Positions 14,564 through 52,843 of a DNA stretch of 56,884 bases are shown piece after piece. The stretch lies in assembly GCF_020514095.1 (NCBI RefSeq), contig NZ_VTKY01000009.1:1-56884 (forward strand), written 5' to 3'. A program made the position numbers and the translations under genes. The stretch comes from Synechococcus sp. MU1643. Lineage in GTDB: Bacteria; Cyanobacteriota; Cyanobacteriia; PCC-6307; Cyanobiaceae. A model generated the notes under the pieces. The model did no database searches. It saw nothing but the letters and a program-made list of their open reading frames with translations, and was not told the DNA's origin. Within the stretch, counting starts at the first letter, position 1. Each line of letters begins with the position of its first letter.

Positions 14564-15175
14564 TTGGTCTTGGCAGGAAGCTTTGCAGAGTTGGCCCGTC
14601 AGGCCGATAAGTCACGGGACACGATGCTGCTGCCCAAGACGGCCCTCGAAACCCCTCCACTGGAGATTCACACCCTGGGCGATGAGGTGTTGCGTCAATC
14701 CGCGCGCCGCATCGGCAAGGTGAATGAGCAGGTGCGGGAGCTGGCTCGCGACATGCTGCGCAGCATGTACACCGCTAAGGGCATCGGCCTGGCGGCTCCT
14801 CAGGTGGGGATCCACCAGCAGCTGCTGGTGATTGATCTCGATCTTGAAAATGCAGCCACGCCGCCCCTGGTGCTGATCAATCCGGAAATCACGGCAGCGA
14901 GCGCCGGGCTCGACACCTACGAAGAGGGCTGTCTCAGCATCCCTGGGGTTTACCTCGATGTCGTCCGCCCCACTGCGATTGAACTGAGCTTCCGCGATGA
15001 GATGGGTCGGCCCCGGAAGATGAAGGCCGATGGCCTGATGGCCCGCTGCATTCAGCACGAGATGGACCATCTCAATGGCGTGTTGTTTGTTGATCGCGTC
15101 ACCGATGAAGACGGTCTGCAAAAGGAGCTCAAGGAGAAAGGTTTTGAGCGCCAAGATGTGCGGAGCGTCGCCTGA
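14564..15175 (+). CDS. def: Peptide deformylase
   Basis: Removes the formyl group from the N-terminal methionine of new proteins. All three family motifs are present: GIGLAAPQVG (73-82), EGCLSIPG (121-128, metal ligand Cys123) and QHEMDHLNG (164-172, ligands His165 and His169). The start is uncertain. The frame begins with TTG codons at 14564 and 14570 and the first ATG is at 14624, but the residues between resemble the N-termini of picocyanobacterial deformylases, so a TTG is likely. Confidence 0.93.
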   Translation: MVLAGSFAELARQADKSRDTMLLPKTALETPPLEIHTLGDEVLRQSARRIGKVNEQVRELARDMLRSMYTAKGIGLAAPQVGIHQQLLVIDLDLENAATPPLVLINPEITAASAGLDTYEEGCLSIPGVYLDVVRPTAIELSFRDEMGRPRKMKADGLMARCIQHEMDHLNGVLFVDRVTDEDGLQKELKEKGFERQDVRSVA

Positions 15176-15178
15176 GTT

Positions 15179-15376
15179 ATGCCGATGAAACCCCTGGCCG
15201 GCGTTTTCCTGGCCCTCGCCTGTGTTCTGGGTATCGCCAGCACCGGCTGTGTGTTTGAACTGGCCTACGGCGATCCCGATCTCGGGGTCAAAACCACCAG
15301 TTGGATCCTGGCCCTTGCGGCCCCTGGAACCGTGGGGACTCTTCTGTTCGCCATTCGCCTGAACAAACCGGCCTGA
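15179..15376 (+). CDS. Small two-helix membrane protein
   Basis: A 65-residue protein three bases after def. Two hydrophobic stretches (about 6-24 and 42-59) flank a short loop 'YGDPDLGVKTTSW'. The first segment could be an uncleaved signal anchor. Met1 and Met3 are both possible starts. Probably co-transcribed with def; function unknown. Confidence 0.6.
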   Translation: MPMKPLAGVFLALACVLGIASTGCVFELAYGDPDLGVKTTSWILALAAPGTVGTLLFAIRLNKPA

Positions 15377-15426
15377 TCGGGGGCGACCGATCCAGGCATC
15401 ACTTTTACGATCCGCTCAGTTCCTCA

Positions 15427-16056
15427 ATGGACTTGATGGCACGCTTTCGAATCGTGGCCGCTGCCGGCCTCGCTCTCGCAGCGACCTCTGCACCGGTGGC
15501 CCAAGCCCAGGGTTCGCTGTTCACGGCGGTGCCCGTGGAGTTAGGCAATTTCGTTTTGGTGTCGGCCCCGATCGGTCAGGGCGAGCGTTCGCAGCTAAAC
15601 ATCTACGAGCAGCGCACCACGAAACGTCCCTGTTTCGCTGTGGCCGCAGGATCACCGGCCATGGTGGATCCCTTGTTGTCCAAGTTTGATTTCACAGGGG
15701 TCTGCAACCGCTACATCGATGGCAACGGTTATTCCCTGCGCATCGGTGGTGATGACCTCGGCACCCGATACCGGCTCAGCGTGGTGAACACCGGTAGAGA
15801 TATCGAGTTGCTGGCCACTCCGACCAAGAATCCCTCCCAGCCGATCATGCTTGTGGCTCGGTCCGGCGGCGCCGCAAGCGGCTTTGTTCAGCTCAAGCTT
15901 GAGCCCGGCTGGACCTTGAAGCGACGGGCCTATGGCAATAAGAGCCTGGGCCATCTCTACGTTTATCGGGACAGCGCACCAGTGGCTGGTTCCAGCCCAA
16001 ACAAGCTGCCTGCTGAGACTGAACAGATCGAGAGTTCTACTGCTCCGTCCTACTGA
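15427..16056 (+). CDS. Secreted DUF3747 protein
   Basis: The 209-residue product has a cleavable signal peptide (hydrophobic core near 9-20, AQAQ site near 27) followed by the DUF3747 domain: 'LFTAVPVELGNFVLVSAPIG', 'LNIYEQRTTKRPCFAVA' and 'FDFTGVCNRYIDGNGYSLRIG'. The two conserved cysteines could form a disulfide. The family is nearly confined to cyanobacteria and appears to be exported; its role is not known. The ATG at 15427 is chosen because it gives the signal peptide directly. Confidence 0.85.
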   Translation: MDLMARFRIVAAAGLALAATSAPVAQAQGSLFTAVPVELGNFVLVSAPIGQGERSQLNIYEQRTTKRPCFAVAAGSPAMVDPLLSKFDFTGVCNRYIDGNGYSLRIGGDDLGTRYRLSVVNTGRDIELLATPTKNPSQPIMLVARSGGAASGFVQLKLEPGWTLKRRAYGNKSLGHLYVYRDSAPVAGSSPNKLPAETEQIESSTAPSY

Positions 16057-16137
16057 GCTTGTGCAGAACCGGTGTAAACACCTGTTGTTCTTCTTTGTCA
16101 GTGATTTCACACTGAAGGAAGATCCTAGGAGGCTGTG

Positions 16138-16287
16138 ATGAAAACAACGGTTGTGCAATGGTTCCATTGGTTCGGTGAAGCGATGACCCACGCGCTGGGG
16201 TCGTTCGACGACCGCCATCTCCAGCCCCCACCGATCGGCACCCAGCCTTACCGGGACACGCCTGATAAGCGAGCTCGCGATTACTGA
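16138..16287 (+). CDS. 49-residue protein of the FG..H-PPPIG-PYRDTP-DY family
   Basis: The frame is short but well supported: an AGGAGG ribosome-binding site lies at 16127-16132, six bases before the ATG. The product has an aromatic amphipathic N-terminus ('VVQWFHWFGEAMTHALG'), then PPPIGTQPYRDTP and a terminal RDY. A clear paralogue with the same core (PPPIGMTPYRDTP, terminal HDY) is encoded at 39589 in the island, which argues that both are translated. The last seven bases overlap the convergent comM-like gene. I do not know the function. Confidence 0.75.
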   Translation: MKTTVVQWFHWFGEAMTHALGSFDDRHLQPPPIGTQPYRDTPDKRARDY

Positions 16288-17821
16288 GATCCAGGCTGCT
16301 TGAGCAGATCTGTGCAGCGGAAGCAACTCGCTTCCGCCACGGCATTTCGATCGATGCTGGTCCGATCGTTGAGGTCGGCAATGGTGCGCGCCACGCGCAA
16401 CAGTTGAAGGCTGCTGCGTGTGCTCATGCCGCGCTGGTTGATTTGCTGTTGCCAGAGGTCGAGTGCCGTTGCTTCGATGACTCCGCTCTGCCGCAATGCT
16501 GCAGCAGACATCCTCCCGTTGCTCGCTCCACCGGGATTGCGCCTCTGCATTCGCTTGCGGGCCCGTTCAATCCGTGTGGGGTTGCACCAGGAGGCTGAGG
16601 CTTGTGTTGGGTTGGGCTGCTTCAGCACCGCTGCCATCTCCTTGGCGTAGCGCCGTTCCAGTCCCAGTTGGAGATCGAGCCGATCCAGAAGCGGGCCGGA
16701 GAGCCGCTGCCAGTAGCGCTGGCTGATGCTGCAGCGACAGCCATGGTTGCGGTCGCCATGCCAGCCGCAGGGGCAGGGATTGGTGGCTGCCACCAAGTGA
16801 TCAGGGCCGGGAACACTGTGCTCTGCTGGGCACGGCTGATCTGCACGGCGCCGTCCTCCAGGGGCTCCCGCAATTGATCCAGCACCGTTCGCGAAAATTC
16901 CGCCAGCTCATCGAGGAAGAGCATGCCACCGCGGGCCAGGCTCACTTCCCCGGGACGGGGTGAGCGTCCGCCGCCCAGTAAGGCGGCAGCGGTGCAACTG
17001 TGGTGTGGCGATCGAAAGGGGCGCTGCTGTTGCAGTTGATCGATGTCATGCAGATGGCCGGCGACGGAATGGATGCGCGTGATGGTGAGTGCTTCCTTGC
17101 GGTTCAGACCTGGCAGCAGCCGCGGCAGTTGATGGGCCAGGTGGGTCTTGCCGCAGCCAGGGGGACCCACGAGCAGTAGGGGATGGCCGCCCGCTGTCGA
17201 AAGAGCCAGGGCGCGGGAGGCCAGGCTGCTGTCGAGGCAGGGCAAGGGATCAGGACCGGTGTTTGCCGCTGACGTGCGTGAGCGACTGCAGTCGATCCCA
17301 TACCAGGGTTGGTCTGCTTTGAGGTGCTGAACCAGCGCGCGCAGATTGGGCGCTGTGCGGATCGCTAGCCCTTCAATCAGGCTGGCTTCATTGGCATTCT
17401 CAGAAGGAACCACCAGGGCCCGGGCCTTTTGCTGATGGGCCTTTTCGGCGAGGGCAATCACCTCGCGACAGGGCCTCAGGCTGCCGTCGAGGCCCAATTC
17501 TCCGGCACACCAGAGGCCCTCCAGCTGAGGGCGGGCGAGCTGCCCGCTGGCCACCAACAGGGCCAGGGCGATGGGGAGATCAAATGAGGGGCCTTCCTTG
17601 CGCAGATCGGCAGGTGCCAGGTTGATCACCACGCGCACCAGGGGGGCGCGGAAGCCGCTGTTGCGCAGGGCGGAGCGGACCCGCTCCCGTGATTCCTGAA
17701 TCGCTTTGTCCGGCAGACCCACAAGCTGGACGCCCAGTAGCCCCGGGGCGAGATCCACCTTCACAACCACCGGTCTGGCCTCCAGGCCTTGCAGGGATGC
17801 ACTGAGACAACGTGCCAGCAT
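16281..17821 (-). pseudogene. comM: Mg-chelatase-like AAA ATPase (YifB/ComM), split by a frameshift
   Basis: ComM-type AAA+ helicases promote branch migration during natural transformation. Residues 1-350 are normal, with the N-terminal lon-like domain ('GLPDKAIQESRERVRSAL'), Walker A GPPGCGKTH and Walker B 'MLFLDELAEF'. After '...QSTVFPA' near 16800 the frame leaves the family, while another minus-strand frame picks up exactly there with 'LVAATNPCPCGWHGDRN' and continues to a normal C-terminus at 16281. One missing base near 16797-16808 explains this. It is either a real loss-of-function mutation or a sequencing error. Confidence 0.85.
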
Positions 17822-34417: not shown

Positions 34418-34424
34418 TCCTGTC

Positions 34425-34687
34425 AGAATGACAGGGTCCGGCTTAGTCGGACTAGGTGATCCACACCAGTGTTTCGGACAGCGGTTCGATTCCGCTCAGC
34501 TCCATTCTCCCTCACGGGGCTGCAATGGTTTCGACGGGGCATGAGGAGGGTGACTGAAGCCTGCTCGGTGAGAGCAAACCCGTAACTGCGAACAACATCG
34601 TTCGTTTCTCCCGTCAAGCAGCCCCTGTTGCTGCCTGACCCTTAGGGGAGATGGGGTGAAGTCAGCCTTATCACCCAATTGACTCAC
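34425..34687 (+). ncRNA. ssrA: Permuted two-piece tmRNA
   Basis: tmRNA rescues stalled ribosomes and tags the peptide for degradation. The acceptor piece comes first and ends at 34504, with T arm AGCGG TTCGATT CCGCT and acceptor strand CAGCTCC. The coding piece starts at 34516 with GGGGCTG, which pairs with that strand over seven positions (one G-U). The tag frame is 34588-34638 and reads ANNIVRFSRQAAPVAA-stop, the picocyanobacterial tag. This acceptor-first order is the circularly permuted form known in this lineage. The exact outer ends are estimates. The island recombinase begins at its 3' end. Confidence 0.93.
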
Positions 34688-34705
34688 GGGGGCTGGAAGG
34701 CCCCC
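34688..34705 (+). terminator. GC hairpin at the 3' end of ssrA
   Basis: GGGGGC / GCCCCC with a six-base loop lies right after the tmRNA coding piece. No T run follows, so terminator function is a guess. The attachment core of the island could lie here or slightly upstream. Confidence 0.4.
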
Positions 34706-34807
34706 TCCAACACTGCAAACACTGACTCCGAGCTAGTTAAGACATCGGGGTCGGAACACCTTGCATCAAAAAGCGCATCAAAGCCGCTGCCAGCTGTCCT
34801 CGACGGC

Positions 34808-35764
34808 ATGGACAAGGCGGAGGCGCTTGCTTACGTCTCACGTCTCTTTGATGCAGCCCAAGCCGGTGCTGCTGTCTGGGGCGATGCCTTGCTGATTAAG
34901 CGGTTCATCACTCAGTGCAGTCGCACGGACTCCGAAGCCACCAGGGCGGCCTACCGCTTTGAGATCAGGGAGTTCTGTCGCTGGCGCGAGCGCAATCACC
35001 CACATCTGCATCTGCGGGAGATCAACCCTGCTTTCTGCCAGGACTGGGTGTCCCAACTGCGGGAACAAGTTGAGGAGGGGCTGATGAAGCCTCGAACCTT
35101 TAACCGCAGGATTGCTGCCATCAGTTCCCTGTACCGATGGGCGGCTGAACCAAGCCGCTCAGCGGTCACAGGGGTGCCGCGTAATCCGATGCCACCGCGC
35201 TCGATGCTGATGGCAAGCAAGAGCACCAGGCCGCTGACTGCTGAGCAGTTCGGGCTGTTGATGGCAGCCATCACGAGGGCCGCTCACTTGGACCCCAAAG
35301 CCCAACGCGACTACGTGCTCATCAAGGGTGCGTACTTGCTCGGATGCAGGGTTTCTGAGATCGCGGCTATCCGTTGGAAAGACATCGAGGCACTCGATGA
35401 CGGAGGCCAGATTCACCTCTTTGGAAAAGGATCCAAGCGACGCACTGTTCGCGTATCGCCAGCAACGCTTGGCCTCTTTCAAGGACTTGGCCGCGGCTCT
35501 GATGAAGAGTTCGTCTTCCCTAGTCCCAGGCGGGATGGGCATCTCACACGCCAAGCCATCGGGCAGGTCTGCCGCAAGTGGGGCAGAGCCGCAGGGTTCC
35601 ACGTTCACCCACACCAACTGAGGCACAGCCATGCCACACACGCTGTGCAGAGGGGCGTGGACGTATTCACGCTTCAAGCCACGCTCGGTCACTCGTCAAG
35701 CGCGACTACTGGGCATTACGTGGCTGCAAATCCTCTGGACAGCAGTTCTCTGCGTCTTGGTTGA
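34808..35764 (+). CDS. Tyrosine recombinase / integrase of the ssrA island
   Basis: This site-specific recombinase would integrate and excise the element. All active-site residues are present (counting from the ATG at 34808): Arg181 in GCRVSEI, Lys207 in 'LFGKGSKRR', His269 and Arg272 in HQLRHSHATH, His295 in LGHSS and nucleophile Tyr304 in GHYVAANP. The N-terminal SAM-like core-binding domain is at about 20-110. The frame is open back to 34679, inside the ssrA end, so a TTG there is also possible. Position at the 3' end of ssrA is classic for such enzymes. A second, 5'-truncated copy lies at 49613. Confidence 0.93.
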   Translation: MDKAEALAYVSRLFDAAQAGAAVWGDALLIKRFITQCSRTDSEATRAAYRFEIREFCRWRERNHPHLHLREINPAFCQDWVSQLREQVEEGLMKPRTFNRRIAAISSLYRWAAEPSRSAVTGVPRNPMPPRSMLMASKSTRPLTAEQFGLLMAAITRAAHLDPKAQRDYVLIKGAYLLGCRVSEIAAIRWKDIEALDDGGQIHLFGKGSKRRTVRVSPATLGLFQGLGRGSDEEFVFPSPRRDGHLTRQAIGQVCRKWGRAAGFHVHPHQLRHSHATHAVQRGVDVFTLQATLGHSSSATTGHYVAANPLDSSSLRLG

Positions 35765-37216: not shown

Positions 37217-37395
37217 GGGGCCCCACCAAGACCGGCAGGGGTAGATCCACTGCGCTGCAACCGATCTCGGCGAAAAAGCACCTCAAAACCGGCCGCTCAA
37301 CCGACAGGCTCAGATCCACTGCGCTGCAGTCATTCTCAGCGAAAACATGGCTCATAACCTGCAGGCTATGGGCCCGGGCACAAGACGCACCATGA
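37213..37395 (+). CDS. Cassette gene 5, small basic protein spanning a tandem repeat
   Basis: A 60-residue basic frame that starts with an ATGA overlap on the previous stop and ends with an ATGA overlap on the next start. Both couplings support translation. The sequence contains the motif RSTALQxxSAK twice because of an underlying DNA repeat. It could also be a non-coding spacer that happens to be open. Confidence 0.4.
   Translation: MRGPTKTGRGRSTALQPISAKKHLKTGRSTDRLRSTALQSFSAKTWLITCRLWARAQDAP
37243..37345 (+). repeat. Two direct repeats 69 bases apart
   Basis: AGATCCACTGCGCTGCA occurs at 37243 and 37312, and similarity continues into TCTCxGCGAAAA. The two copies lie just upstream of the HTH gene and could be protein-binding sites or a small tandem duplication. 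Confidence 0.65.
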
Positions 37396-37778
37396 CCCGC
37401 AAGCGCGTTACTGCCAGCGAGAAGAAACAGCGGCACGAATGGGCGATCCGGCAGATAGATGCCGGAATGGGTCTCAGCGAATTAACTGCCGTTACTGCCG
37501 AAACATGGGGGTGCAGCCGCAGAAACGCCCGTGATGTCGTCTGTGCGGCCCACAAGGACTGGCTAGATGCTGCCTACGGATCTGAGGAGATCGACCAGAA
37601 GGACTTGCTTTTTCAGCAGGTGGGGCGGCTAGAGCGCATCGCCCGCAAGGCGGAAAATTCGGGCCAATTTTCTGCCGCCGTGGGCGCGATAACGGCACTA
37701 AACCGAATGATGGCGTTGGGTGCTGACCAGAGAGGTTTCCGGGGTCATCGCCCCAACGGGCACTACTACCGGCGCTGA
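37392..37778 (+). CDS. HTH protein resembling small terminase subunits, intact copy
   Basis: A 128-residue protein: basic N-terminus 'MTRKRVTASEKKQRHEWAIR', an HTH-like part 'AETWGCSRRNARDVVCAAHKDW', then 'LERIARKAENSGQFSAAVGAITALNRMM', the helical oligomerisation pattern seen in phage TerS proteins, and a basic tail ending GHYYRR. TerS recognises packaging sites on DNA. Two relatives exist in the island, at 43000 (same length) and 52458 (frameshifted). The family assignment is by pattern only. Confidence 0.55.
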   Translation: MTRKRVTASEKKQRHEWAIRQIDAGMGLSELTAVTAETWGCSRRNARDVVCAAHKDWLDAAYGSEEIDQKDLLFQQVGRLERIARKAENSGQFSAAVGAITALNRMMALGADQRGFRGHRPNGHYYRR

Positions 37779-38702: not shown

Positions 38703-39240
38703 CTATTCGGTGGGCTTGAAAGCGATCTCAGTGCCGTTTTCTGTGGTCTCGGCCTTGCTCTCCAGCAGCCCGTTGCCCTCAAGGGATCGCAGATGACGCA
38801 ACGCTTTGCGGTCTTTGTCCTTGTAGGCGTCGCAGTGCTGAACCACGTCCCTGCGGGTCGTGCGCTTGAACTCCCTCCATCGTTCGCGACACAGCTCCAG
38901 AACGTCAGCCATGGCGTCGGAGAGCTTGTCCTCCGTCTCCTGTTTGAACAGGGCTTCCAGCTGCTCGGCAGCGTCACCCTCCAAGGTCCAGTGGGCTGCG
39001 TGTTGCAGGACCAGGAGCTGGAGGTCTTCCTCACGGCCTTCGGTCTCAAGCAGCACCCGCTTGTCGGCCTTGCACTCGCGACGTTTGAACCAGGAAAGGC
39101 AGATCACCTGGCTGAACGCTGCGGGCAGTGCTGTGGTGCCTCGTGATGCCGCGACCGCACCTTCACCCTGACGGCTGTGACCGCTGTGGTGGAGCACAAC
39201 CGGTGTTACCGCCTGCCCCAGCAGTGCAATTGCTGTTTAC
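38703..39240 (-). pseudogene. C-terminal remnant of a RecA-like (AAA_25/RepA-type) helicase
   Basis: The frame carries the back half of a RecA-like ATPase: 'PVVLHHSGHSRQGEGAVAAS' followed by 'RGTTALPAAFSQVICLSW' and 'DKRVLLETEGR'. It then continues into a charged C-terminal helix-turn-helix-like part ending at 38703. Homology extends upstream of the first GTG (39197) to an in-frame stop near 39240, where it ends abruptly; Walker A and B are absent. Such helicases belong to the replication modules of plasmids and integrative elements. Confidence 0.55.
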
Positions 39241-39397
39241 TCCAGTAGTCGAGATGAGCCCTGGCGGTAGCTATGTCGTCGCAGTAGATACGGCTGCCGT
39301 TTAACTCAGCTAAGTAGCGGGGGTTGCTATCACCCATCAGCATGCGAATTGTCCCGCCTAGTTTTGTTCTCTGAACAAGTGAAGGGGCAAGAGACAT
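39206..39397 (-). CDS. Small hypothetical protein
   Basis: A 63-residue frame (MSLAPSLVQRTKLGGTIRML...) with 'DDIATARAHLDYWSKQQLHC' at its end. Its last 35 bases overlap the helicase remnant in another frame, so the gene may itself be a fusion or fragment. Function unknown. Confidence 0.35.
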   Translation of the reverse strand: MSLAPSLVQRTKLGGTIRMLMGDSNPRYLAELNGSRIYCDDIATARAHLDYWSKQQLHCWGRR

Positions 39398-39588
39398 ACT
39401 CGTCGCCTCCAATTCTTTTGAGGGAGAAAATATGTTGCTAGTGCCGTGAGAGGCAAGCTGCTTGTGAACGAAAATAAAGTACCTAGGTATTTATCCTCGC
39501 CAACCCGTTGTCCGGGTTTGGGTTAAGTACTTAGTTCCAACAAGAGACTTCTGTCTTAGGAATAAGTCAGTTCTAACTGAGAGGTCCC

Positions 39589-39732
39589 ATGAAGGGTTTT
39601 CTGAAGTGGTTTGGAGACGCTTTTGCTCATGCAATGGGCGCGATTGATGCAGAGGAAAAGAGCCATGTTCCTCCCCCAATTGGCATGACTCCTTACCGAG
39701 ATACCCCGATGAAGAGAGGGCATGACTACTAG
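39589..39732 (+). CDS. 47-residue island paralogue of the FG..PPPIG-PYRDTP-DY protein
   Basis: GAGAGG precedes the ATG by about six bases. The product starts MKGFLKWFGDAFAHAMG and contains PPPIGMTPYRDTP and a terminal HDY. Compared with the core copy at 16138 the pattern, length and C-terminus are the same while the middle differs. A terminator-like hairpin follows 54 bases after the stop. Function unknown; the aromatic amphipathic N-terminus might touch membranes. Confidence 0.75.
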   Translation: MKGFLKWFGDAFAHAMGAIDAEEKSHVPPPIGMTPYRDTPMKRGHDY

Positions 39733-39785
39733 CTCTGAGCTTTTCCACTGCCACTAACGGCATTGGACTGATGGGGACAATCTTT

Positions 39786-39819
39786 CCTCCTGATCTCTAT
39801 GAGGCAGGAGGTTATTTTT
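39786..39819 (+). terminator. Terminator after the 47-residue gene
   Basis: CCTCCTG (39786-39792) pairs with CAGGAGG (39805-39811), followed by TTATTTTTT. Confidence 0.7.
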
Positions 39820-40361
39820 TGAATCGCGTAGGCAATTGTCTCTACATGTTCACTACGCCACTCTTGACTTTGGTGGCTTTGATTGCTGAAGAAATGAGTG
39901 TTAAGACCGATTGCCTTGTGCGTGTCCGCTGACGAGAGTGAGTCCACTGAGATCGGAGGCGTCAATGAGAGACGACGGTCCAACCGAGCAGGTTTTAGAA
40001 GTCGCCTGACCTTTCGAGCATCTGCTCCACGAGTTTTCTCACCATCCATGGGCTTGCCCTAAATCTCGGCACCATCACTGCCGGGGGGCACTCAACACTG
40101 AGTCAGAAGGTCCATTACCTGGAACCTTGGCCCCAGGAGCTTGAAAGGCCCGACACTTCGCCCGACGCCAGAAATGGCATACGGCATGGCCCCTGTTCCG
40201 TCATCACAGGGGTGTCGGAAGCGAGCAATAGGAGAGGTCACCCCATTCCTGTCGTAGGTGGGCTGGCCTCTCATCCCCTGATCAGCACGTTCGCCCTCCA
40301 AACAGGGTGCAGTCCGACTTGGGTCAAGGAACGGGGACCCGAGCAATCTTGAGGTCGATTC
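39820..40361. other. Stretch without a supported gene
   Basis: Open frames exist on the minus strand but none has a convincing start, ribosome-binding site or family pattern, and they run across the start of the DUF4278 gene. I see no RNA gene or insertion-sequence end. The composition is close to the island average. Confidence 0.5.
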
Positions 40362-40778
40362 ATGAGCACGCTCTTGTATCGCGGACACACTTACGAGCAT
40401 CAACCTGCAGCTCAAAAAGTCTGCAAACAGCTGAGTTACCGAGGCCAGGAGTACAACACCTGTACGGAACACCAACCAGCTGATTTGCATCCTCATCTGA
40501 GCTACCGAGGAATTGGCTACGACAAATCCCTTGAGGCAGAGGAGGAGTGCCGACTCCGAAATGATCGCCAGTCCTACTTTTCTTTGGCCCGGAGGATCGT
40601 AAGAGCGCAGTTCCAATTCGCAGATGAATCAAGAACGCAGCAGCTCTGGCAAGAAGTTGCTGATCGAGGCATGGATGTCGATCGCATTACATATTTGATG
40701 TACGGATGCCAGTTTCAAGATGATGAGACTGCGATGTTGATCGCAGACCAGGAGTATCAGATGAAATCACATCGCTGA
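40362..40778 (+). CDS. DUF4278-like protein with three YRG motifs
   Basis: The 138-residue protein has three N-terminal copies of the motif L-x-Y-R-G-x-x-Y: 'LLYRGHTYE', 'LSYRGQEYN' and 'LSYRGIGYD', at about 3, 26 and 46. DUF4278 repeats are frequent in marine cyanobacteria and have no known role. The C-terminal half is helical and acidic. A strong terminator follows 36 bases after the stop. Confidence 0.75.
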   Translation: MSTLLYRGHTYEHQPAAQKVCKQLSYRGQEYNTCTEHQPADLHPHLSYRGIGYDKSLEAEEECRLRNDRQSYFSLARRIVRAQFQFADESRTQQLWQEVADRGMDVDRITYLMYGCQFQDDETAMLIADQEYQMKSHR

Positions 40779-40813
40779 TTGGGAGATAGATCAAACGCAT
40801 AAACGAGCGAGCT

Positions 40814-40850
40814 AGGCCGTCTCTCCACCGGGAGGGGCGGCCTTCCTCTT
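40814..40850 (+). terminator. Strong terminator after the DUF4278 gene
   Basis: A 13-bp stem (40814-40826 with 40831-40843, two G-U pairs) followed by TCCTCTTTG. It also separates the convergent SHOCT gene. Confidence 0.8.
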
Positions 40851-40867
40851 TGTCGGAGATTCAGCTG

Positions 40868-42999: not shown

Positions 43000-43386
43000 A
43001 TGGCCAGAACCAGCAGAGCTGAACGCCACAGACGCCGTGAATCAGCGTTGGCTTTAGTCAGTCAGGGAAAGGGTTTCAGCGATGTCGTGACCGCACAGAT
43101 GTCCCAATGGGGGTGCTCACGGTCATCTGCCCAGCGGGACTGTCGTTGGGCGCATGATCAGCTTCAACTGAGCATTGATTCACACGATGCTCAGCATCTG
43201 ATGGTCCACATGGCGACAAGCCTTCAACGCATCTCTCTCAAGGCTGAAGAGGACAAGCAATACGCCGCTGCTGTCGGTGCCCAGAAGATGCTTTACGAGC
43301 TTCTGCTACGCCGGAAGATGGACCACGAAGCTGCCAAAGCAAGTCGTCCTGGTTGGGGTTATCGCCACGGCAACACCCGCTCCTAG
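43000..43386 (+). CDS. HTH protein, diverged member of the TerS-like family
   Basis: A 128-residue protein, exactly the length of the copy at 37392 and with the same layout: basic N-terminus 'MARTSRAERHRRRESALALV', 'SQWGCSRSSAQRDCRWAHDQ' at the HTH, and 'LQRISLKAEEDKQYAAAVGAQKML' in the helical part. The WGCSR and AAAVGA blocks are conserved between both. It may mark a third element in the island. Confidence 0.55.
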   Translation: MARTSRAERHRRRESALALVSQGKGFSDVVTAQMSQWGCSRSSAQRDCRWAHDQLQLSIDSHDAQHLMVHMATSLQRISLKAEEDKQYAAAVGAQKMLYELLLRRKMDHEAAKASRPGWGYRHGNTRS

Positions 43387-44610: not shown

Positions 44611-44706
44611 TCGGGAAGCCTGATGCCATTGCTCACTGGCTGAGAGCAATACAAGACCCTTCGGGGAAAAGCAGGGGGTGTGGTTGTCGCTATCCATCTC
44701 CCGACA
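44611..44706 (+). repeat. Module 2, full copy D (RNA-like or degenerate coding repeat)
   Basis: GTCGGGA (44611) pairs with TCCCGAC (44700-44706), closing a 96-nt segment. Inside, ATTGCTC/GAGCAAT and CCC-TTCG-GGG form further stems. Copy E at 47213 has the same length, a paired closing stem with a G-U, and different but still pairing inner stems. The segment is also an open frame without a start (VGKPDAIAHWLRAIQDPSG...). In copy E that frame has two stops while codon-like differences remain. It stands between the arsH pair and a 25-codon ORF. Confidence 0.55.
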
Positions 44707-48670: not shown

Positions 48671-49612
48671 TCACCAGTTGTCTGCCGAATCTTCCATTTC
48701 GTAAGGCAGTGATGCCGGGGTAGGAAGTAATTCTGTGACAAGGTCTGGCATGACAGGCATGTGACGACTTCCCGCCATATTTCCCTCGGGAACAACAGTG
48801 TTCCCAATTTCTGCGGTGGGAATAGCCTCGGGAACTTGCCTAACCGCAGTCTCTGACTGTGTTTCTTCTTTATTACTTCCTTCTATATAAAATCCCGTAT
48901 AGGAGGTTTCCTTCTGCTGAATCAGTTTTGGTGCCAGAGCGTACGAACCACGGTGTGGCTTGGTTAATTGGCGTTCGCCAAACATGGACCCAAGAGTGTT
49001 GTCCACGGTCTTGGTTGGTTTGCCGTGCCGTGCAAAAACTGCATCGACCAGACTTTTGCGCGTCATAGAAGGTGTGCCATTTTGATGCGCTCGCCAAAGA
49101 ACATCGATGATTGCCTCGCGGCAATTACCGACGACTTCTACTTCCGGCGCTAACTGCAAAACACCTGTTTCACGGTTCAGGTTGAAAGTGAGGCTGCGGC
49201 ATGGATCAATAACTGCCGCTCGGTCTTTTTTGAATTTGGCTGTTACACCGATTTGCCTGCCGTCTGCGTCAAGTGCCTTACTAAATGACACCACCATGCT
49301 TGGGTCTTCCGCCCAGCTTTTTGCACCGCTCCATATTCCGTTTGTGCTGCCATCGTGATTTAACAAACCGATTGAGCATCTATTTGGCTGGCAAATGCCT
49401 TCCCGTAAGTAAGTAAGCATTGCTCTGCTGGATAAATTGTTTTCATGTGACCAACCGGCTGCACTGCTAACGCTCTTAACGCTGTCGATGAAAGTGGCGT
49501 CGATTTTGTTCATCCGAATGAATTGTTCCAATCGAATAACGCCTCTGATGTCGGCCCGCCAAGACTCATGCCCTTGATCAGATGCATTGACCCAGAACCA
49601 GACGCGTTGTTC
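48671..49612 (-). pseudogene. RecA-like helicase (AAA_25/RepA type), 5'-truncated
   Basis: The frame shows the second half of a RecA-like ATPase: Walker B 'IDATFIDSVKSV', then 'NRCSIGLLNHDGSTNGIWSG' and 'SWAEDPSMVVSFSKALD'. A winged-helix-like region follows ('AIIDVLWRAHQNGTPSMTRK'), then a disordered tail. Walker A is missing. Similarity stops at 49612, exactly where the truncated integrase begins on the other strand. In intact elements this would be the replication helicase. Confidence 0.6.
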
Positions 49613-50332
49613 TGGGTGTCCCAACTGCGGGAAGAAGTCGACGCTGGACTCATGAAGCCCCGGACCTTCAACCGCAGGGTGGCCGCCATCAGCTCTCTGT
49701 ACCGATGGGCGTCTGATCCATCACGGTCGGCAGCGTCCGGTGTTCCGCGGAACCCGATCCCTGGCCGGTCTCAGCTCCACGCCGAGAAGTCGACCCGTGG
49801 CCTTTCTGATGAACAGATGGGTTTGCTGTTTGCAGCCATCACCAGAGCGGCTCACCTGGACCCCAATGCCCAACGTGACTACGCCCTCATCAAAGATGCG
49901 TACTTGCTCGGATGCAGGGTCTCGGAGATCGCGGTTATCCGTTGGAAAGACATCGAGGCACTCGATGACGGAGGCCAGATTCACCTTTTCGGCAAAGGAT
50001 CCAGGAGACGCACTGTTCGCGTATCGCCAGCAACGCTTGGCCTCTTTCAAGGACTTGGCCGCGGCTCTGATGAAGAGTTCGTCTTCCCTAGTCCCAGGCG
50101 GGATGGGCATCTCACACGCCAAGCAATTGGAGATGTTTGCCGGAAGTGGGGACGCGCCGCAGGGTTCCACGTTCACCCACACCAACTGAGGCACAGCCAT
50201 GCCACACACGCTGTGCAGAGGGGCGTGGACGTATTCACGCTTCAAGCCACGCTCGGTCACTCGTCAAGCGCGACTACTGGGCATTACGTGGCTGCAAATC
50301 CTCTGGACAGCAGTTCTCTGCGTCTTGGTTAG
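49613..50332 (+). pseudogene. Tyrosine recombinase, second copy lacking its N-terminal third
   Basis: From Trp at 49613 the frame aligns without gaps to the integrase at 35045-35764 (239 residues each) and keeps all catalytic residues. The N-terminal core-binding domain is replaced by an unrelated frame antisense to the helicase remnant. The first half differs from copy 1 at many positions, while long 3' tracts are identical at the DNA level. It is probably inactive. Confidence 0.85.
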
Positions 50333-50652: not shown

Positions 50653-51097
50653 TAACCCCTGCTCACACCAACGACGAGACCCTGCTGGTGATCCACTCAG
50701 CCCCACTCGCACAACATTCACCCGCGAGATGGATCGCCTCTGGGATGGAGCAGAACTGGGAATCAAGCCGCACTTTCAACGCAAACTGGATCGTCAAGAG
50801 ATTCGATGCAGAGATGGGGTGAAGAGGAGATGTGAAGGGAGAGAGAAGGGCAACATGGATTGAATAGTGGCTTAGTGGGTGACTCGGAAACGCCTCTATA
50901 ACCATAAATTCAATGAATGCAAGTTAATAGCACCTGGATTATCTCCGTCCCAGTGTGGCTTTTGCGCTCAATGCACCAGGGGGGCAGCTGCCTGATGATC
51001 GATTGAGTTAATCAGTAATTAGATGCTAGTTATTTTTAGATGATTTTGGAAATGTGATTTTTAGGCTCTCAAAAAAGATAAGAATCTCAAAGGGCGT
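50653..51097. other. Stretch without a supported gene
   Basis: A plus-strand frame to 50863 is charged and low in family features, and I do not accept it. From about 50,900 the DNA becomes AT-rich, as in the sulfotransferase that follows. No terminator or RNA gene is evident. Confidence 0.5.
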
Positions 51098-52457: not shown

Positions 52458-52843
52458 ATGACCCGCAAGAGAGTCACCGCGAGCGAGAAGAAACAACGCC
52501 ATGAATGGGCGGTTCGGCAGATTGACGCCGGAATGGGTCTGAGCGAATTAACTGCCTTTACCGCCGAAACATGGGGGTGTTCCCGTAGACAGGTACGTGA
52601 TGTCGTCGCTGTGGCCCACAAGGACTGGCTAGATGCTGCTACGGATCAGAGGAGATCGACCAACGTGACTTGCTTTTCCAGCAGGTGGGACGACTCGAAC
52701 GCATCGCCCGCAAGGCAGAAAATGCAGGCCAGTTTTCAGCGGCAGTTGGTGCCATTACGGCGCTGAATCGAATGATGGCGTTGGGTGATGACCAGAAGGG
52801 CTTCCGAGGTCATCGACACAACGGACACCACTACCGGCGCTGA
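52458..52843 (+). pseudogene. TerS-like HTH gene, copy with a one-base deletion
   Basis: The DNA aligns over its full length to 37392-37778 and is exactly one base shorter (386 versus 387). The missing base lies near 52637, where GCTGCCTACGG of copy 1 is GCTGCTACGG here. Translation is normal for 60 residues, then shifts. The correct frame continues to the conserved end HHYRR at 52843. Confidence 0.85.

Follow-up and report, generated by a model that had tools for sequence, protein, structure and literature searches.

A stretch of 56,884 bases from Synechococcus sp. MU1643 (hereafter, the window) contains two very short open reading frames (ORFs) that resemble each other, one on the chromosome proper and the other within an apparently mobile region, which raises the question of what these microproteins are and how an island came to carry a second one. 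An earlier note, made from the sequence alone, had proposed that the 49-residue protein at 16138 belongs to the core genome, that the 47-residue protein at 39589 is its paralogue, and that carriage of the second copy by a mobile region suggests a selectable, perhaps stress-related, role. The two genes and their translation signals are as follows.

39589..39732, + strand: island-type atpT-like gene, 47 aa, ORF MKGFLKWFGDAFAHAMGAIDAEEKSHVPPPIGMTPYRDTPMKRGHDY (genome search, family profile, purifying selection)
16138..16287, + strand: ancestral-locus atpT-like gene, 49 aa, ORF MKTTVVQWFHWFGEAMTHALGSFDDRHLQPPPIGTQPYRDTPDKRARDY (genome search, synteny)
39579..39584, + strand: Shine-Dalgarno-like GAGAGG, 4 nt upstream of the island ATG (read in the sequence)
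16127..16132, + strand: Shine-Dalgarno AGGAGG, 5 nt upstream of the chromosomal ATG (read in the sequence)

The FG, PPPIG, PYRDTP, and terminal DY motifs are shared by the two proteins as claimed, and both ribosome-binding sites were confirmed. The island protein is 56% identical to the chromosomal copy (E 2.3e-11), and a search of the whole genome with it (E ≤ 10) returned two places, itself and the chromosomal copy. This similarity is far beyond chance, and the two ORFs are homologues. When the island copy was compared with that of a relative (G033), there were 16 nucleotide changes and two amino acid changes (dN 0.03, dS 0.64); for the chromosomal copy and its counterpart at L034, the numbers were 15 and two (dN 0.02, dS 0.56). 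In seven of the nine island-type pairs compared, dN/dS was approximately 0.03–0.15, and of the remaining two, one had no amino acid change and one had a saturated dS. Chromosomal pairs gave dN/dS values of 0 to approximately 0.21 where dS was computable. The substitutions are mainly synonymous, so both copies are under purifying selection; the two microgenes are real and conserved, and they are paralogues.

The distribution of the family was then considered. In a first survey, a single-sequence search at the loose limit of E ≤ 1 matched 70 of 98 relatives, including 46 of the 68 good-quality genomes. An alignment of 34 rows (A1), built from clear members of the picocyanobacterial family, has the invariant residues W, PP, G, and P and the consensus WFGxAxxHAxGA...PPxIGxQPYRDxP. 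The earlier note had named an absence of homologues outside this genome as grounds for refutation, and this condition fails: of 400 genomes sampled from the picocyanobacterial family to which the window belongs, 309 matched the A1 profile at E ≤ 1e-3 (204 of 251 good genomes; 50 of 59 genera), some of them having also supplied A1 rows. In a phylum-wide sample, which took in genomes of the window's family and others, 14 of 194 matched, 13 of them in that family; the sole match outside it (G532) is the tail of a Nif11-domain protein. The nine named relatives are all Synechococcus, and the small-genome members of the family are presumably Prochlorococcus. Among these small-genome, Prochlorococcus-like relatives, one divergent type reads GGMGGAVVSEKSK...PPDIGDQPYKDTPKKGVL (L059, L061, L062, L065, L072, L092, and L093) and another KIWTAIIATKQWFTKLF...PPPEIGTQ (L063, L064, L069, and L094). 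Up to four family matches per genome were seen in genus g86.

In Pfam, NCBIfam, PHROGs, and PDB, no match of the family exceeded the cut-off, and searches of PDB sequences and PDB folds gave no useful match for the microproteins. A weak NCBIfam match by 2 of 34 members (best E 0.13, 11.8 bits) would place them in the PA1414 family (NF041729) of small Pseudomonas proteins, which are similarly short; however, this score falls well short of the 28 bits set as the curated cut-off, and we regard such membership as hardly credible.

The chromosomal copy is accompanied by the following neighbors.

14564..15175, + strand: peptide deformylase-like gene, conserved left neighbor (cluster c5)
15301..16056, + strand: DUF3747 protein, immediate left neighbor, start codon uncertain (Pfam PF12565; cluster c4)
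16622..17821, − strand: comM-like gene, right neighbor (cluster c3)

Clustering of the neighbors gave, at many of the loci examined, the order peptidase (<), def (>), DUF3747 (>), the chromosomal copy, comM (<), HIT (>), and ABC transporter (>), and in several small genomes the order is def (>), the copy, HIT (>). Here, def (peptide deformylase), comM, and HIT, together with lysA, uppS, and bioB below, are presumptive names, given on the basis of the sequence. The chromosomal copy is most likely the ancestral gene at a conserved def–DUF3747–comM locus. Of 34 genomes of the genus, 13 lack the ancestral copy at its site; def and DUF3747 are present there, and comM was seen in 12 of them (there was no good comM match in G008). 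In eight of these 13, the island type is the only copy detected: four are complete (G006, G007, G008, and G015; 98–100%), and four are 53–89% complete (G011, G012, G016, and G027). The other five (G002, G004, G020, G023, and G030) have neither copy, and two of these, G020 and G023, are nearly complete. Neither copy was detected in these two at E ≤ 1e-3 (G023 has a doubtful match at E 0.02), so the function is either dispensable there or served otherwise. The gene is likewise missing from the ancestral site in five genomes from other genera of the family (G105, G107, G117, G145, and G146), and in G032 the ancestral copy ends before the tail. The site was not located in G022 or G013, and hence absence is not established for these genomes. 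In total, the 34 genomes comprise 12 with the ancestral copy only, nine with the island type only, five with both, one with the ancestral copy and a truncated island type, one with a truncated ancestral copy, and six with neither. Mutual exclusion of the two copies was considered and is not borne out by these counts. The term “core-genome” thus goes too far and needs a limit, the ancestral copy being missing from its site in 13 of the 34 genomes.

The region around the second copy has the following features.

34420..34704, + strand: tmRNA, left edge of the island (RF01851)
34679..35764, + strand: tyrosine recombinase, start codon uncertain (PF00589, E 1.4e-28)
49523..50332, + strand: second recombinase copy, likely incomplete (PF00589, E 1.1e-27; repeats D1 and D6)

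The tyrosine recombinase sits directly after the tmRNA, its duplicate at 49.5 kb has repeated flanks, and the GC content drops from approximately 0.60–0.65 to 0.46–0.55; the placement of the second copy within an island therefore stands. Two related mobile elements are probably arranged in tandem behind the tmRNA. The repeats 35044–35537/49612–50105 and 37061–37778/52018–52843 contain the recombinase and the following genes twice, approximately 15 kb apart. A repeat of the tmRNA 3′ end was sought as an attachment site and rejected, the only match being a chance-level one of 14 nt at 50811. The island also contains three copies of a small protein family (cluster c64; 37347–37778, 43000–43386, and 52458–52766), two of which were tested and had no Pfam match, and four copies of a 36-nt repeat, TTGTCGCYATCCATCTCYCGA..., at 44684, 45267, 46682, and 47285, which are 67–100% alike and spread over 2.6 kb. 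Additionally, a Glutamine-II riboswitch (RF01704, 53.1 bits; 40285–40343) lies 18 nt ahead of a DUF4278 gene (40362–40778, 138 aa), this pair being 0.6 kb from the microprotein gene, and a 1.6-kb block containing the microprotein gene, the riboswitch, and the DUF4278 gene (39212–40853) is 95% identical in G003 (L081). Control of the microprotein by a riboswitch of this kind was rejected: 39300–39589 has no match to the Glutamine-II riboswitch family even at E ≤ 10, and the riboswitch precedes the next gene.

Island-type copies begin MKxxxxWFGDAFAHAMGA..., and their neighbors differ from those of the ancestral locus. Judged by these neighbors, the type occupies as many as eight different sites within the genus. 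The window and G003 carry it in the tmRNA island, and G033 carries it in a variable region, with 1.1 kb around the gene shared with the window. The other sites are a lysA–uppS–bioB-like one (G005, G009, and G025); a DUF520 site (G006, G008, G015, and G027); and other places in G007, G011/G016, G012, and G022, where the genes of G011, G016, and G022 are near a contig end. The G005 copy ends early. A reading of the island copy as a duplicate of the genome's own core copy is not supported. In a weak tree of 53 columns, the window's chromosomal copy groups with five related chromosomal-type rows (98/93), the island copy falls outside the chromosomal group, and the island-type rows form no single clade. 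The island-type linker is two residues longer than the chromosomal one, and the island type has its own upstream element, described below. Judged by these sequence characters, the island copy represents a divergent type and did not arise by recent duplication of the chromosomal copy.

A small amphipathic peptide with a patchy distribution on a recombinase-bearing island could also be a toxin-like or selfish component of the island without a host function. We consider this very improbable, because much of the family has a homologue at a syntenic position and dN/dS is well below 1. Furthermore, no relatives of the microproteins were found in phage records, where hits were at chance level only, or in viral contigs, the scans of which rest on short patterns, nor were any found in plasmids, which were searched with the island copy only; a phage, virus, or plasmid origin was dropped on the basis of these searches.

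A known protein of comparable size is AtpTheta, encoded by atpT/norf1. Norf1/AtpTheta of Synechocystis has 48 aa and is induced in the dark (PMC5126843); it is described as a small amphipathic protein that prevents ATP hydrolysis by ATP synthase and accumulates in Synechocystis in darkness and low-energy conditions (PMC9241938), and a 2024 review assigns it to the thylakoid membrane, where it directly contacts ATP synthase (PMC11124002). Two of these papers make opposed statements: marine picocyanobacteria are without Norf1 homologues according to Baumgartner 2016 (PMC5126843), and “likely homologs” are stated for all available cyanobacterial genomes in PMC9241938. One norf1 primer sequence, allowing ≤ 2 mismatches, had no match in 50 genomes. 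A degenerate pattern derived from that primer then recovered MKLNQMLQDLVQYFTEAFARVFGPSDDEYPTVGVQPFEGEILVKNAEE and similar sequences from three of five genomes belonging to a single genus. In L123, L126, and L128, the leader primer published in PMC5126843 matches at 18–19 of 21 positions just before the ATG, and the two norf1 probe primers from that paper match best or joint-best at the two ends of the gene (17–18 of 24 and 16–22 of 29 positions); the ORFs of L126 and L128 have the same length as Norf1, 48 aa. Independently of the primers, the A1 profile weakly matched the same short protein in other cyanobacteria. The resulting alignment (A2) has 14 rows of AtpTheta from cyanobacteria other than picocyanobacteria, 11 obtained through weak A1 matches and three found with the primers.

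Comparison of A1 and A2 with hhalign gave a probability of 97% (E 1e-10) over 46 collinear columns, end to end, with 17% identity; the score was 48.8, and the best of 200 column shuffles and the reversed profile both scored 20.5. Because 11 of the 14 A2 rows had come through A1 matches, the comparison was repeated with the three primer-found rows only, and the match persisted (94.3%, E 9.9e-8, score 36.1 vs. 17.9 for the best of 200 shuffles). Six island-type rows alone also matched A2 (94.3%, E 1e-7, score 35.6 vs. 15.6). A2 matched 21 of 23 genomes of other classes at E ≤ 1 and 19 at E ≤ 1e-6, and of the 36 family genomes searched, not one had a match below E 0.05. The distributions of A1 (309 of 400 family genomes) and A2 thus complement each other. 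In 28 of the 36, including this whole genome (G000), A2 had no match at E ≤ 1; in the eight with weak matches, the top one was the island-type gene in four (G006, G008, G015, and G025) and something else in four. Among 1,321 ORF segments of the window, A2 ranked the chromosomal copy first (E 0.0058) and the island copy fourth, behind two chance segments.

The N-terminal helix is amphipathic: the helical moment of the best 18-residue segment, chosen as the best, was reached by 5, 6, and 0 of 2,000 shuffles for the island, chromosomal, and Synechocystis-type proteins, respectively. AlphaFold2 (seven rows) predicted, at low confidence (pLDDT 65, pTM 0.31), a helix at residues 2–25 and no fold beyond it, and this structure had no match in PDB. 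At 47 and 49 aa, the microproteins are in the range of a very short protein such as AtpTheta of Synechocystis PCC 6803 (48 aa). Both kinds have 47–50 residues, an amphipathic N-terminal helix, an FG-type helix end, an acidic linker, the motif P-x-[VI]-G-x-Q-P-[FY], and mostly one strong match per genome, and the two Synechocystis-type proteins tested likewise had no Pfam or NCBIfam match above cut-off. They differ in that the microproteins have PP before IG where AtpTheta has YP, and a basic C-terminus where that of AtpTheta is acidic. Unlike AtpTheta of PCC 6803, the microproteins occur as two paralogues in some genomes, with one type at varying sites behind an upstream element. An AtpTheta-like C-terminal module (...FSPxxDxxPxIGxQPYxGD or similar) was also seen in Nif11-domain proteins of non-pico cyanobacteria (L101, L138, L139, L140, and L146), which have an N-terminal Nif11 domain (PF07862, seen in both of the two tested out of the five) in place of the free N-terminus; these may be a fused or tethered form of the inhibitor.

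The differences from AtpTheta, namely the low identity, PP instead of YP, and a basic tail often ending in DY, together with the failure of the family to be universal (G020 and G023), could mean that the microprotein is a picocyanobacteria-specific membrane-surface protein, remotely sharing ancestry with AtpTheta and acting on another partner in an unrelated function. This is improbable, however, given the end-to-end profile match in the same order (helix, FG- or HAxG-type end, acidic linker, and P-x-[IV]-G-x-Q-P-[FY]) and the complementary distribution of A1 and A2. With the family homologous to AtpTheta, which is described as accumulating in darkness and at low energy in Synechocystis (PMC9241938), the stress-related role proposed earlier can be kept as plausible.

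A conserved element was found upstream of the island-type gene.

39521..39534, + strand: conserved upstream element GGTTAAGTACTTAG, starting 68 nt before the island ATG
39475..39486, + strand: second, weaker element-like site TAAAGTACCTAG, one mismatch, also seen by eye in G033

The form GGTTAAGTACYTAG occurs approximately 60–69 nt before the start in 13 of 15 island-type genes, with ≤ 2 mismatches of 14, the pattern having been derived from these genes themselves; the exceptions are the truncated gene of G005 (four mismatches) and G012 (none recognizable). Within 260 nt, no other distinct family row had a site with < 3 mismatches; among 3,000 random stretches, 7 carried one with ≤ 2. In the 34 genus genomes, exact GGTTAAGTACYTA occurred 23 times, vs. 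four for the reversed pattern. A small ORF that has a Shine-Dalgarno motif begins 60–69 nt downstream at 21 of these 23 sites (search range, 58–70 nt), as was the case at 516 of 20,000 random positions; the 21 are not independent cases, as sites within a gene family are related. Ten of these ORFs are island-type atpT, nine encode a 56–60-aa protein ending ...YWEERCxxSPTxPGCKIYDD or similar, one encodes 38 aa, and one 62 aa with a similar Cys-bearing end. At the remaining two sites, a 98-aa ORF, by eye a relative of the C-terminus of the DUF4278 island neighbor, starts at 110 nt, and an 81-aa TTG ORF at 62 nt lacks a Shine-Dalgarno motif. The microprotein of approximately 59 aa, MVTICSGFFDLCIPLNAFDK...CDKSPTAPGCKIYDD, which has no Pfam match, is found with the GGTTAAGTACCTA element 63 nt upstream in the genome studied here (C1:322079; L172/L185) and at L174, L176, L178, L183, L186–L188, and L191. 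Outside the genus, the GGTTAAGTACCTA form was not enriched (five sites in 234 genomes vs. 25 for the reversed pattern). Because its place is near-constant, the element may be a putative regulator site just upstream of a promoter, the position of which is only suggested by a loosely shared TA approximately 35 nt downstream, seen by eye. The idea of a strict TANNNT −10 box was rejected, because only 2 of 19 distinct sites had one, at a single offset.

A further possibility is that only the ancestral copy is AtpTheta and that the island type has taken a new role, for instance tuning or antagonizing the ancestral copy or serving in a different stress. The separate position of the island type in the tree, its own upstream element, and the intact state of both copies in five genomes are consistent with such a role. 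We nevertheless regard it as unlikely: all five residues that are invariant in A1 are retained in the window's island copy, and the island type can probably do the basic job, because it is the only copy detected in the eight empty-site genomes.

The reading that we prefer, with a probability of roughly 0.7, is that both microproteins are AtpTheta, the chromosomal copy being ancestral and the island copy a divergent type moved horizontally together with the element GGTTAAGTACYTA. In its favor are the profile matches with their shuffle controls, the primer anchoring, the first rank of the chromosomal copy with A2, the complementary distributions, the amphipathic helix, purifying selection, and synteny. 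The 17% identity, the scarcity of A2 matches in family genomes, the fourth rank of the island copy, the statement of Baumgartner 2016, the two nearly complete genomes with neither copy, and the poor structure model speak against it. In this reading, the amphipathic N-terminal helix (about residues 2–25) would bring the peptide to the thylakoid membrane and to ATP synthase, and the conserved proline-rich tail, PPxIGxQPYxDxP, would attach to the enzyme and restrain ATP hydrolysis once the proton gradient has collapsed in darkness or at low energy; either copy may inhibit in this way. The varying position of the island type would result from horizontal transfer between sites along with the element, which could make the inhibitor respond to a second signal; the island type is the only copy found in some relatives. 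By remote homology, the protein is of a known kind; a second type with varying sites, its own element, and sometimes the status of only copy is a form that we did not meet in the literature searched, in which no title on island copies of AtpTheta and no paper containing both the string GGTTAAGTAC and “Synechococcus” was found.

Picocyanobacteria are among the ocean's most abundant phototrophs, and a likely function can now be assigned to an unannotated microprotein family of this group. The upstream element marks other unannotated microprotein genes, and the results suggest that islands can carry a regulator of a central energy enzyme. They also offer a possible way to reconcile the opposed statements on AtpTheta in marine picocyanobacteria in PMC5126843 and PMC9241938. 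More tentatively, marine Synechococcus may possess a mobile, interchangeable brake on ATP synthase that moves with its own element, joins a small regulon of microproteins that includes the 59-aa double-Cys protein, and replaces a lost ancestral brake, so that the saving of energy in the dark would be retuned by horizontal transfer.
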